Of a stretch of 63,947 nt of DNA, positions 47,181 to 55,463 are shown piece by piece; the stretch's first letter is position 1, and the number at the start of each line of letters is the position of its first letter. The notes under the pieces are model-generated. The model saw nothing but the letters and a program-made list of their open reading frames with translations, ran no database searches and had not been told where the DNA came from. Both the position numbers and the translations under genes were made by a program. Source of the stretch: Nitrospirota bacterium (GTDB taxonomy: Bacteria; Nitrospirota; Nitrospiria; SBBL01; JAADHI01); the NCBI GenBank assembly GCA_029261135.1, contig JAJDBX010000064.1, positions 1-63,947 on the forward strand, read 5' to 3'.

Positions 47181-48260
47181 GTGGGTCTTTTTTCAAAAAA
47201 TAAATCAAAAACCCCTCTCTCTGGAGAAAGCGCTCATACGCGCTCTGAAAAAGAACGCCTGTATCTGCAGGTCATTCCCATTTTATTGCAGTATATGAAA
47301 TCGTTTACTTTTGATTTGAAGGAAATAAATGCGGATGCATTTAAGGAACAATTGACAGCCTTAGCAGCGCTATTTGAAAACGAAGAAGACATCCAAAGGA
47401 TGGGACGTCACTTTGAAGCCAACAAGTCTGAAATTTCTGAATTCATCGATAAGGAAAAAAATTATTTTGTTAACAAAGAATTCGAATTAAAAGATATTAT
47501 CACTATTCTCTCCACAGGACTTTCGACGGTTAACAGTCAAAATCAGCGATTTAATGCATTGATTCATGAAGAAACACTCAAATTAGAAGATATTACGAAA
47601 CTCGATGACATTCGAAAGATTAAAGAGGAATTGACTTTAAAAATAGACACACTAAAAAAATCCATTCAGAAAAAACAGAGCCAAGATGCTGAACACCTCG
47701 AAATATTATCCAGTAAAGTCGAAACGCTTAAAGTTGAACTAGAAGAGACAAAAAGTGCCTCGATGACGGATGGGCTCACCGGTGCTTTCAACCGACTGGC
47801 CCTTGATACAAAACTGATTAAACTTGTTAAAGAAAATAAACGTAGTTTTTCTCTCTTGATGCTGGATATTGACAACTTTAAGTTAATTAATGACTCTTAT
47901 GGTCATCAGGTTGGAGATCGCGTCTTGGTCGCACTCGTCCAAAAATGTCAGAACCTGATTCGTGAAGGAGATTATTTTGCGCGATATGGTGGCGAGGAGT
48001 TTATGATTGTCTTGCCCGCCACTTCCTTAAAAAATGCGCTTAAAAAGGCGGAGCTTCTCTGCAGTAAAATTGCTGAGACTGAATATGCGGTAGATGAAAA
48101 AAATGGCACAAAACCACTCTCTTTTACAGTAAGTATTGGTGCCAGCTCACGCCAACGTGGCGATACGCTTGAATCATTGACCGCCCGAACCGACAGGGCG
48201 CTCTACGAGGCAAAACATCGCGGGAAAAATCAGGTCGTGAGTGAAAAAGAGATCGATTAG
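47181..48260 (+). CDS. Diguanylate cyclase (GGDEF domain) with helical N-terminal region
   Basis: The 359-residue cytoplasmic protein would make c-di-GMP from two GTP. Residues about 20-190 are helical and charged with a coiled coil just before the enzyme domain. The domain opens DGLTGAFNRLALD and has the active-site motif YGGEEF with the product-inhibition I-site RxxD (REGD) five residues before it, so it should be active and feedback-regulated. The GTG start follows AGGA at 6-base spacing. No receiver or known sensor domain is seen; the helical region may sense an unknown signal. Confidence 0.93.
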   Translation: MGLFSKNKSKTPLSGESAHTRSEKERLYLQVIPILLQYMKSFTFDLKEINADAFKEQLTALAALFENEEDIQRMGRHFEANKSEISEFIDKEKNYFVNKEFELKDIITILSTGLSTVNSQNQRFNALIHEETLKLEDITKLDDIRKIKEELTLKIDTLKKSIQKKQSQDAEHLEILSSKVETLKVELEETKSASMTDGLTGAFNRLALDTKLIKLVKENKRSFSLLMLDIDNFKLINDSYGHQVGDRVLVALVQKCQNLIREGDYFARYGGEEFMIVLPATSLKNALKKAELLCSKIAETEYAVDEKNGTKPLSFTVSIGASSRQRGDTLESLTARTDRALYEAKHRGKNQVVSEKEID

Positions 48261-51929: not shown

Positions 51930-53072
51930 ACGTGGGTTTTACTCTCTATTGGTTGATCGACCGGTGCTATCTTGGGTTTTTTCATTACACGTTCTGTCAC
52001 AGATCTGATGAAAGCCGCACTTGATGTGGATGTTGATCTTGAGGATTCGACAGAAATAAGGCAGTTGGGTGCTGCCCTTGCCGATATGAGGCTTTCCCTG
52101 AAAGAGACGGCTCAAGCCGCTAAAACCGTCGCTTCCGGGAAGATGGATGTGACGGTAAAGATTAAAGGGAAGAGGATCTCCTGGCCATTTCTATGAATAA
52201 AATGATCGAAACGATCCAATTTGCATCCGGACAATCTGAGCAGAAAATGGCCAAGTTATCGGAAAATCAAGAATATTCAAAGAAAATCGTAAACTTGATG
52301 ATCGATGGTTTGAACACGATACCTATTTAAAACGTTATCAAGAAACAGGGAAACGGAAGATTATTGGCATAGGTCGTGAAGTGGAAGGAAAACATGGTAT
52401 TACATTCCCACTTGAACTTGGCGTCAATGAAGTCGGGATTGGCGGGGCCACGATGTATGTGGGAACACTATGTGATATTAGTGAAAAAAAAGACGTGGAA
52501 GCAAAGCTCGCGGACGAATGTCAGAAGCTGATCTCCGAGGATTGCTTAAAATGACTGATGCGGTTTCTGGCCTGCGAAGCCTGAATTAGTTAGCCGAGAC
52601 CATACTATCGACATTGATTCCCGCAGTCGAAGGGCAGCTGGGGGGGTATATTGTGGATAACTTCGAGGAAGTACTTGGTTCATATTCAGGAGCAGGACTT
52701 ACACTATTGTTAATTGCATCCTATCCCTATAAAAAGAGAAAAGGTCTGAATCAATCCCAGCTCGGTGAAGGACTTGTTGGAGAACATGCTGTCGAAAAAT
52801 TTTGTGAAGGTCAGTATGACCTTATTTTTATGGATATGCAGATGCCCGTCATGGATGGCTATGCCGCCACTTGGAAAATCCGAAAGATGGAGGAGGTCGA
52901 AAATCGTAATCCAACACCGATCATCGCACTCAGTACATTTCTCTTAAAAGAAGAAGAGAATAAAAGTCTTGGTGCTGGTTGCGATGTCCACCTCACAAAA
53001 CCGATCAAAAAAGCCGCATTTTTGGATACGGTTCAAAAATACGGGGAAAAAATAACCGGCCCTTCGCGCTAG
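51930..53072 (+). pseudogene. Decayed HAMP-PAS-receiver sensor gene (hybrid histidine kinase or similar)
   Basis: Pieces of one signalling protein lie in different frames. A membrane/HAMP region reads GFFITRSVTDLMKAALDV, then LGAALADMRLSL and AAKTVASGKMDV. A PAS region has YLKRYQETGKRKIIGIGREV and FPLELGVNEVGIGG ending YVGTLCDISEKKDVEAKL. A receiver end (from about 52770) has YDLIFMDMQMPVMDGYAA and DVHLTKPIKKAAFLDTV. The histidine-kinase core and the first part of the receiver are missing. The receiver frame is open from 52614 to 53072, but its upstream part does not match the family. Confidence 0.72.
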
Positions 53073-53218
53073 TGGGGAGAGCTTCCGATAGAACAGGAAA
53101 TACTAAAATATTGGAGACACTCGATATTGAAGAGAAAAGATACCTTATGGAGACCCTTTCCGGTTGCGAAAGGGTTTTGTCTGTTTTTCACGATTGTTTT
53201 TTTAAAGAGCTTTTATTC

Positions 53219-54856
53219 ATGAAAGTTACTTGGATCACCTTTTTGATGTTCCTGTTGTTATTCGTCACGGTCCTTTCGGTGAACTTCAGTTATGCCGATA
53301 GTCAAGCCGAGATGGACAACACGGGTGTTTCCTTGGGAAAGGTTAATTTTCATATTTCATGTTCTCCATCCGTACATGGCGCGTTTAATCACGGCCTCTC
53401 ATTGCTCCATCACATGATGTATCAACAAGCTGAAGCGGTATTCCAGTCTATTGCGAAAGAGGATCCACGCTGTGCCATGGCTCATTGGGGCATTGCCATG
53501 ACTCAGTTTCATCCCCTTTGGGCTCCCCCGAACGAAACCGCATTAGCAAAAGGTTTGCAAGCGATAGAAAAGGCCCATGTTTTGAATCCGACGAGCCCTC
53601 GGGAGCAGGCTTATATTAAAGCCCTCAGATTTTTTTTCAAGAACTGGAAGGTGGTCAGGCATTCAAGGCGTATTTCGGCCTGGGATGTCGCTCAAAAAAA
53701 GGTCTATAAATCCTTTCCTGATGATATCGATGCGGGGGCTTTTTATGCCCTTTCTCATCTTTCCACCGCAGAAAAAGGGGATCAAGAGTATACCCATCAA
53801 AAATTGATGGGGCTTATGATGGAAAAACTGCGGGTAAAGGCGCCTGAACACCCGGGTCTGTTCCATTACATGATTCACGCTTACGACAATCCTTTACATG
53901 CACATCGCGCTGTTAAAGTGGCACGAGATTATTTGAAGCTCGTACCCGATATCCCTCATGCTCTACATATGCCGAGCCATATCTTTGTTCGCTTGGGTTT
54001 ATGGTCTGATGTCATCGCCTGGAATACCCGTTCTGCTGCCAAAGCGCTTAAAGAATCTGAAGGGAAGATGACCTCGCTTCACTACATCCATGCGATTGAT
54101 TACCTGATGTATGCCTATCTGCAACAAGGCCAAGACAAAGAAGCTCGCAACCTTCTGATCGCAATCAACAAGAGAGAAGATTATCAGGACAACTTTGCCT
54201 CCGCCTACGGTATTGCCGCGGCACAGTCTCGTTATGCCCTTGAACGGGGTGCGTGGGGTGATGCTGCGACACAAGCACTTCGCACACACAAGTCTTTTCC
54301 ATGGGATAAATACCCTTGGCATGAAGCGATCCTTTATTTTTCTCGAGGCCTGGGAGCTGCGCGAAGTGGAGATACCGCCGGAGCAGTGCAAGCCATCAAG
54401 AGACTTGATACCGTTCTTCAGGTTTCTAAGAAGGTAGGTGAAGACTATTGGGAGGTTCAGGTGCTTATCCAACGCTTAACCTTGTCTGCCTGGGTGGCTT
54501 TCTCGGAAGGGAAGAAGGGTCAGGCTTTAAAGAAGATGCGCCAGGCGGCAAATATTGAAGACTCGATTGATAAACACCCTGTCACACCTGGTGCTGTTTT
54601 GCCAGCACGGGATCTTTTTGGAGACATGCTCGTTCTCATGAAAAAATTCCCCGAAGCGCTCGAAGCCTATGAGGCCAGCCTTAAAATTTCTCCCAATCGT
54701 TTCAACAGCTTATACGGTGCGGGCCACGCTGCGGAACAAGCGGGGAATCTAGAGAAGGCGAAGGCTTATTATGCGAAACTGGTCAAACTCACGGAGAAGG
54801 GAGAAGGGGAAAGACCAAGAATAAAACAAGCGAAAGCATTCCTAAATAAAAATTGA
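53219..54856 (+). CDS. Exported tetratricopeptide-repeat protein
   Basis: The 545-residue protein starts with a signal peptide (MKVTWITFLMFLLLFVTVLS, cleavage near FSYA). Helical TPR-type repeats cover the rest (NHGLSLLHHMMYQQAEAVFQ, AMAHWGIAMTQ, and C-terminal ALEAYEASLKISPNRFNSLYGAGHAAEQ). Family members with HGLxLLHxFxY and AMAHWGIAM are common exported TPR proteins of unknown function. Conserved His and Trp residues (HMPSHIFVRLGLW) may bind metal; that is a guess. The open frame upstream to 52979 runs into the receiver remnant, so the ATG at 53219 is used. Confidence 0.83.
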   Translation: MKVTWITFLMFLLLFVTVLSVNFSYADSQAEMDNTGVSLGKVNFHISCSPSVHGAFNHGLSLLHHMMYQQAEAVFQSIAKEDPRCAMAHWGIAMTQFHPLWAPPNETALAKGLQAIEKAHVLNPTSPREQAYIKALRFFFKNWKVVRHSRRISAWDVAQKKVYKSFPDDIDAGAFYALSHLSTAEKGDQEYTHQKLMGLMMEKLRVKAPEHPGLFHYMIHAYDNPLHAHRAVKVARDYLKLVPDIPHALHMPSHIFVRLGLWSDVIAWNTRSAAKALKESEGKMTSLHYIHAIDYLMYAYLQQGQDKEARNLLIAINKREDYQDNFASAYGIAAAQSRYALERGAWGDAATQALRTHKSFPWDKYPWHEAILYFSRGLGAARSGDTAGAVQAIKRLDTVLQVSKKVGEDYWEVQVLIQRLTLSAWVAFSEGKKGQALKKMRQAANIEDSIDKHPVTPGAVLPARDLFGDMLVLMKKFPEALEAYEASLKISPNRFNSLYGAGHAAEQAGNLEKAKAYYAKLVKLTEKGEGERPRIKQAKAFLNKN

Positions 54857-55052
54857 GAACAGGATTTACCCCATTAAATTTCGAATCATCCCTTCCGCTC
54901 CCCCCCAATTCCATTTGTAATGCTGTAAGAGTAGAGAGGAATTAAATGCCTCTAAAACTGGAAGTATTTGTGGGTGGGAGAGGCTTCTTAGAAGTCGATA
55001 CAAATCGAAACTTAAAAATTCATTGAACAGGCCTACAATTCATCAAAAGAAT
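54857..55052. other. Non-coding stretch at the left of a 676-bp gene-poor region
   Basis: I see no gene, promoter or repeat here. Short open frames exist but have no ribosome binding site or recognisable protein. The rest of the gap, to 55532, holds an inverted repeat, a lipoprotein remnant, and a riboswitch with terminator. Confidence 0.5.
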
Positions 55053-55100
55053 GAACTCCGCGTAAGGCTCACCCCAAGGAGCGGTTCTTACGCGGAGTTC
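55053..55100 (-). terminator. Perfect 14-bp inverted repeat, possible terminator for the minus-strand lipoprotein remnant
   Basis: GAACTCCGCGTAAG (55053-55066) and its exact complement (55087-55100) flank a 20-base loop. On the minus strand the stem is followed by ATTCTTTTG, a weak T-run, and it lies just beyond the FN3 lipoprotein remnant. A terminator is the likeliest role; a protein-binding palindrome or a mobile-element relic is also possible. Confidence 0.5.
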
Positions 55101-55134
55101 GCTTGGAGGATATTCTTTGTTCACCCTTTTTATT

Positions 55135-55318
55135 TATTAGGTTGTCACTTCGAGTTTCACTCTTGCTTGAGTCTCCCGTTTCATCATCCGCAACCATCTA
55201 TCCAATGATAGGTCGTCCCTGGTTTTAAACCGGACACAGTTTTTGTGGTATCGGCAGTTTGATTTTCACCGCCACAACAGGCTGGAATGAATAAAAGGAA
55301 AGCTATGCGCCTAAGTTC
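55135..55318 (-). pseudogene. Remnant of a lipoprotein with a fibronectin type III domain
   Basis: On the minus strand the sequence reads RRIAFLLFIPACCGGENQ, a lipoprotein signal with lipobox IPAC, then TVSGLKPGTTYHW, the hallmark of an FN3 strand pair. A frame change leads to MVADDETGDSSKSETRSDN, the expected continuation. No proper start codon stands before the signal peptide, and stop codons follow at 55184 and 55181. The gene appears to be a dead surface lipoprotein that lay under control of the riboswitch directly upstream. Confidence 0.62.
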
Positions 55319-55336
55319 TAAAAGTGTTCTCGACTT

Positions 55337-55394
55337 AATAAAAATGCCGAGCTACCAAAAGGACATTATCTTATTGTCATCTCGGCAACTCGGC
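55337..55394 (-). terminator. Intrinsic terminator overlapping the riboswitch 3' half (expression platform)
   Basis: On the minus strand GCCGAGTTGCC (55394-55384) can pair with GGTAGCTCGGC (55356-55346), allowing G-U pairs. An inner GACA/TGTC helix extends it, and ATTTTTATT follows. The upstream arm is part of the conserved 3' end of the aptamer, so aptamer and terminator should exclude each other. That predicts that ligand turns expression on. Confidence 0.62.
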
Positions 55395-55463
55395 TATCTA
55401 AAAAAGACCCGTAGTTTTGCGCCATGCTATTACAAGCACTTGGCCATGATGGAAGGTGTTACT
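55378..55463 (-). promoter_or_regulatory. Candidate cyclic di-GMP-I (GEMM) riboswitch aptamer
   Basis: Reading the minus strand, the region shows the GEMM-I order of motifs. A GGCCAA (family GGCAAA-like) comes first. A P2 hairpin GTGCT/AGCAT with a GTAA tetraloop follows. The invariant CGCAAA (plus 55421-55416) is next, then CTACGGGTCT, and the 3' strand AGATAGCCGAGTTGCC. A CATC/GATG pair can close P1. Deviations (GGCCAA, a mismatch below the tetraloop) suggest divergence or decay. It lies ahead of an FN3 lipoprotein remnant; GEMM riboswitches often control extracellular proteins. The call is by eye, without a covariance search. Confidence 0.62.

Follow-up and report, generated by a model that had tools for sequence, protein, structure and literature searches.

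The window, that is, the whole stretch of 63,947 nucleotides of a Nitrospirota bacterium analysed here, carries on its minus strand a c-di-GMP-I (GEMM-I) riboswitch aptamer, a predicted terminator hairpin that shares a strand with it and, behind both, the broken tail of a surface-protein gene. A TPR gene (52979-54856, plus strand) converges on the locus from the other side. The features are as follows, all on the minus strand.

55381-55455: c-di-GMP-I (GEMM-I) riboswitch aptamer, 75 nt, with a short P3 (cmscan, RF01051)
55387-55416: aptamer P3, AACU (55416-55413) with AGUU (55390-55387), then CGG/CCG and GUC/GAU (cmscan alignment)
55346-55394: strong predicted terminator hairpin (folds, and covariation over 18 leaders)
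55394-55380: terminator 5' arm, GCCGAGUUGCCGAGA, the same strand as the aptamer 3' strand, containing the ligand-pairing C
55378-55375 with 55365-55362: terminator inner stem, GACA/UGUC (folds)
55360-55346: terminator 3' arm, UUUUGGUAGCUCGGC (folds)
55337-55345: U-rich tract of the terminator, AUUUUUAUU (sequence)
55139-55330: pseudogene remnant, C-terminal tail of a surface protein (reading frames, and matches to the tails of relatives)
54986-55257: DNA homologous to a surface-protein gene of the relative G007 (contig C81), at its 3' end and in the 3' flank (blastn, 72% over 276 bp, E 1e-34)

The aptamer and its ligand contacts

Comparison of the whole window with Rfam by cmscan gave RF01051 as the sole match above cut-off, at 55381-55455 (minus strand), with 54.2 bits against a gathering cut-off of 35 bits, an E-value of 8.3e-8 and coverage of the full model (positions 1-87). 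The original prediction, read from the letters, had proposed a c-di-GMP-I aptamer at this place; the search agrees with it, the GEMM-I motifs that it quoted are all found on the minus strand in the order given, and the ligand-contact positions are intact in the alignment. The element is a structurally intact c-di-GMP-I riboswitch by family membership. Its P2 is capped by a GUAA loop of the GNRA type, with one U-U mismatch below the loop, docking of P2 being a tertiary contact, and its P1 differs from the consensus CACCUU/GAGGUG by a single C-A mismatch (GAGAUG). It resembles the members of RF01051, for instance Vibrio cholerae Vc2, in sequence and structure, ligand-contact bases included, but its P3 is short and lacks a large hairpin extension, so that 75 nt stand against a model of 87 positions.

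In what we take to be the Vc2 numbering, A18 corresponds to 55447, G20 to 55445, A47 to 55418 and C92 to 55385. In Vibrio Vc2, A18 is presumably the stacking base and G20, A47 and C92 further bases in contact with c-di-GMP, and the equivalents of all four are intact in the window copy. The base at position 20 is a G (55445), the cGAMP-type A20 of GEMM-Ib being absent. Since a cGAMP-selective GEMM-Ib riboswitch of Geobacter becomes selective for c-di-GMP on the change A20G (PMC6456294), the G at this position indicates that the window copy is of the c-di-GMP type.

Terminator pairing and related leaders

The segment GCCGAGTTGCC (55394-55384) is complementary to GGTAGCTCGGC (55356-55346) at a spacing of exactly 27 bases and ATTTTTATT comes next, which is the downstream pairing and T-rich tract that had been pointed out at first reading. 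Because the 3' strand of the aptamer is the 5' arm of the terminator, the two structures are mutually exclusive, as had also been proposed: they overlap by 14 nt, both folds were computed, and the terminator helix covaries among homologous leaders. The tetranucleotide AGUU (55390-55387) is a strand of P3 whose alternative partner, in a three-way pairing table, lies in the 3' arm of the terminator, and the C at 55385, which we take to be the ligand-pairing C92, is paired inside the terminator fold. The minimum free energy of the leader, -42.4 kcal/mol, lies below that of all 200 shuffled sequences (mean -28.7, z -3.9), and the structure having this energy is the terminator fold; the isolated hairpin reaches -27.5 kcal/mol. 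In folds of the growing transcript the most stable structure is aptamer-like until about 106 nt, and the terminator is dominant from 110-114 nt. A simple terminator scanner did not call the hairpin 55394-55346, as its loop limit is 3-8 nt.

The genome of the window has nine GEMM-I copies and its family about 39, of which a few score below the cut-off. The copies closest to the window type are those on contigs C32 and C37 of the relative G007 (Nitrospirota MAG OFTM308; 86% identity over the leader) and on its contig C61 (81%), together with one on contig C73 of the window's own genome (G000); the three G007 copies came from a pattern scan of the whole collection, in which other phyla were also matched. 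A covariance model built on the window leader matched six further genomes (G019, G021, G023, G026, G030 and G032) with E-values of at most 1e-9 and a seventh, G028, at 1e-7, and these matches sit in other families of the class (Nitrospirota). Searches for the locus itself gave no match among plasmids and no orthologous locus at the genus level, and beside the neighbouring kinase of G002 there is neither riboswitch nor remnant.

The homologous leaders allowed the alternative pairings to be followed. Among the four closest copies the aptamer helices covary, but covariation of the terminator in those four alone is too weak to count and the analysis was repeated with 18 leaders. In these, 89.4% of the cells of the terminator helix are paired and 7 of the 20 pairs show changes on both sides; none of 500 shuffles attained either value, and pairing falls to 32-55% when the partners are slid. 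Paired covariation, whose absence from relatives the original prediction had named as one of two refuting outcomes, is therefore present. In the window the shared strand AGUU fits both its P3 partner, AACU (pairs U-A, C-G, A-U and A-U), and its terminator partner (A-U, G-C, U-G and U-A); in another leader, L154, the shared strand is AACU and both alternative partners follow the A,A. Thus, in at least two leaders, a change of the shared strand went together with changes of both strands with which it can pair.

The genes downstream of the leaders of the class include those for PilZ-domain proteins and for an RCC1-repeat surface protein. At two loci (L139 and L160) the window leader type precedes PilZ-domain proteins, which are c-di-GMP receptors; there, the receptor genes would be under the control of the messenger itself. 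The third copy of the relative G007, on C61 (L071:4258-4900), has no clear gene for several hundred bases behind it and is perhaps another orphan.

The broken gene behind the switch

No minus-strand open reading frame of at least 60 codons was found behind the riboswitch; only the frame-broken remnant follows, in agreement with the proposal that the switch is without a working gene. The remnant contains a second hydrophobic segment with an internal lipobox ('...RRIAFLLFIPACCGG') and then an FN3-like stretch ('TVSGLKPGTTYHW ... VADDETGDSSKSETRS'), and its frames read '...RRIAFLLFIPACCGGENQTADTTKTVSGLKPGTTYHW' and, past a frameshift, 'VADDETGDSSKSETRSD'. The frameshift is accompanied by stops and there is no usable start, it being noted that in a draft assembly single frameshifts could be errors. 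In the corresponding tails of relatives, an internal lipobox (LSACGGGG) and then the last FN3-like strands follow a hydrophobic pair that has a basic loop, and the homology with the C81 gene end includes an inverted repeat at 55053-55100. Judged from these matches, the remnant is shown to come from the end of a surface-protein gene and to comprise its C-terminal lipo-invert/FN3-like tail and 3' flank. The copies in relatives resemble the NCBIfam family NF058595 'lipo-invert', with one copy near or over the cut-off and others below, whereas the window keeps the last part alone and frame-broken; this family gives weak matches in 11 of 14 control genomes and lone weak matches were discounted as evidence.

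The gene had at first been described as a decayed surface lipoprotein gene. That it is a broken surface-protein gene holds, but the stretch is a gene end interrupted by a frameshift and stops, and its lipobox is internal and does not mark the start of a lipoprotein gene. An N-terminal lipoprotein gene was likewise rejected as the target of the switch, no open reading frame with such a start being present and the lipobox being internal in the C-terminal tails of relatives. In four surface proteins with tails of this kind (L104:1486-2082, L106:16-1647, L105:1507-2496 and L103:1492-1773) the last FN3-like domain is seemingly split by the hydrophobic hairpin with its internal lipobox; if the protein were cut there, the C-terminal half would become a separate lipidated piece.

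The relative G007 has both the C81 gene tail and leaders of the window type. Its leaders on C32 and C37 read out of contig ends that share an exact 141-mer, and its tails on C81 and C82 read in from contig ends that share another exact 141-mer. These two pairs (L075 and L074; L103 and L117) look like the traces of a large surface-protein gene that was duplicated recently and is itself absent from the assembly; a single long gene present twice and collapsed by the assembler would be expected to leave such paired 141-nt ends on either side. The window leader type would therefore head a lipo-invert surface-protein gene in G007, the intervening gene being missing from that assembly, and the former target of the window switch was probably a large surface-protein gene with a lipo-invert/FN3-like C-terminal anchor. 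In the simplest history, the body of the gene would have been deleted and the leader thereby joined to the tail near 55340-55310.

The second copy of the window leader type in the same genome (G000:C73, L008:1501-3075) precedes a lipoprotein gene that is interrupted by several stops; an intact paralogue, of 590 aa, is located at G000:C40:50631-52148.

Proposed mechanism and competing readings

With a probability of roughly 0.8, the locus is a transcriptional c-di-GMP ON switch that was orphaned by the deletion of its gene body; its response to the ligand and its ON polarity are what we infer from the layout. RNA polymerase would make the aptamer before the 3' arm of the terminator. If c-di-GMP were bound at an RNA length of about 80-106 nt, the shared strand 55394-55380 would be held in P3 and P1, the terminator would be blocked and transcription would go on. 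In the absence of ligand, the emerging 3' arm (55360-55346) would capture the shared strand, ligand-pairing C included, and transcription would stop at the U tract. The leader, formerly heading a large surface-protein gene, would have been joined to the last codons and 3' flank by loss of the body, and the orphan switch would now control no intact protein. The genome has 33 GGDEF matches. A GGDEF domain, of the diguanylate cyclase family, is encoded at 47763-48233 (plus strand), about 7 kb from the riboswitch.

The closest known system is the pilM riboswitch of Geobacter metallireducens (GEMM-Ib), an ON switch with a class I aptamer: ligand relieves termination, either the aptamer or the terminator can form, the terminator captures the ligand-pairing C, and the decision falls at a transcript length of about 100 nt (PMC9262584). 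The same layout is present in the window, where one strand serves as the 3' side of the aptamer and as the 5' arm of the terminator and the ligand-pairing C is sequestered; by this likeness, an ON response and a decision point at about 100 nt are predicted for the window, and the earlier expectation that c-di-GMP relieves termination is supported. Unlike the window copy, with its G20 and no intact gene, pilM responds to cGAMP and governs a functioning pilus operon. The Cd1 c-di-GMP-I riboswitch of Clostridioides difficile shares the aptamer family and the transcriptional control predicted here, but it works as an OFF switch, has a separate antiterminator and allows aptamer and terminator to coexist (PMC9262584).

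A minority possibility, although one to be taken seriously, is that the element is a fully decaying relic whose promoter is already lost and whose aptamer has been short of time to mutate. The scan upstream of the switch found no strong promoter-like site (best score 8.0, equalled in 10% of shuffles), while TTGACA boxes lie upstream of most other GEMM-I copies in the genome; the P1 mismatch and the dead gene downstream fit such decay, as does the C73 copy: its aptamer scores low, it lacks a promoter-like site and its gene, too, is broken. However, several GEMM-I copies ahead of open genes are also without a clear promoter in the same scan, the ligand-contact bases and both alternative helices of the window copy are all intact, and the joint change of its shared strand with both partners points to selection at least until recently. 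Present expression of the switch, presumed in our reading, is uncertain because no strong promoter was found.

It is unlikely that the switch is still used, c-di-GMP-dependent read-through producing a non-coding RNA that approaches the convergent TPR gene from its 3' side, with antisense or interference effects. Aptamer and terminator are both intact, the TPR gene ends at 54856, some 480 bases past the terminator, and the window is 86% identical to the G007 leader and just 72% to the G007 gene tail. Against this, the lack of a strong promoter counts again, and the transcript may be stopped by the inverted repeat 55053-55100, which lies in the part common with the gene end of the relative. Moreover, only one other family member has a protein clearly related to the TPR protein (36% identity), so that no conserved arrangement backs the antisense reading. 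That the ON switch was kept working after the deletion because its read-through RNA has a job, such as c-di-GMP-gated antisense to the TPR gene, is distinctly improbable. Pseudogenes adjoining antisense-acting riboswitches have been reported, in a geometry unlike that of the window (PMC9943018).

A ligand other than c-di-GMP, namely 3',3'-cGAMP, is very improbable: A20, the cGAMP-type base, occurs in other GEMM-I copies of the same genome, but the window copy has G20, the c-di-GMP-type base (PMC6456294). Chance resemblance, or a mere ordinary terminator, has only the small P3 stem in its favour and is negligible in view of the E-value over the window, the class-wide homologues and the covariation.

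As a switch the element is of an ordinary, known kind; what is mildly curious is that this copy is stranded. It would be a clean natural case of a riboswitch that outlived its deleted gene. Its homologues make up a leader type found across Nitrospirota, one RNA strand of which has co-evolved with two alternative partners. A literature search for GEMM-I in Nitrospirota, or for riboswitches before deleted genes, found nothing direct, and no c-di-GMP riboswitch regulon in Nitrospirota is described in the literature searched; the predicted pilM-type ON mechanism is now testable in a lineage rich in c-di-GMP genes.

A second GEMM-I type was observed in the family, on contigs C4, C40, C72 and C50 of the window's genome (L002-L005) and in L077, L030 and L076. 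It mostly has A20, the cGAMP-type base, the exception being C71/L076 with G20. In this type the 5' strand of the aptamer (CGATAAGAG) is exactly complementary, over 7-9 bases, to the terminator loop (CTCTTATCG), and in the C4 copy the pairing follows a change, GATAAAAG with CTTTTATC. Such complementarity points to an antiterminator made by the 5' strand, with opposite polarity, and to possible cGAMP signalling in Nitrospirota.
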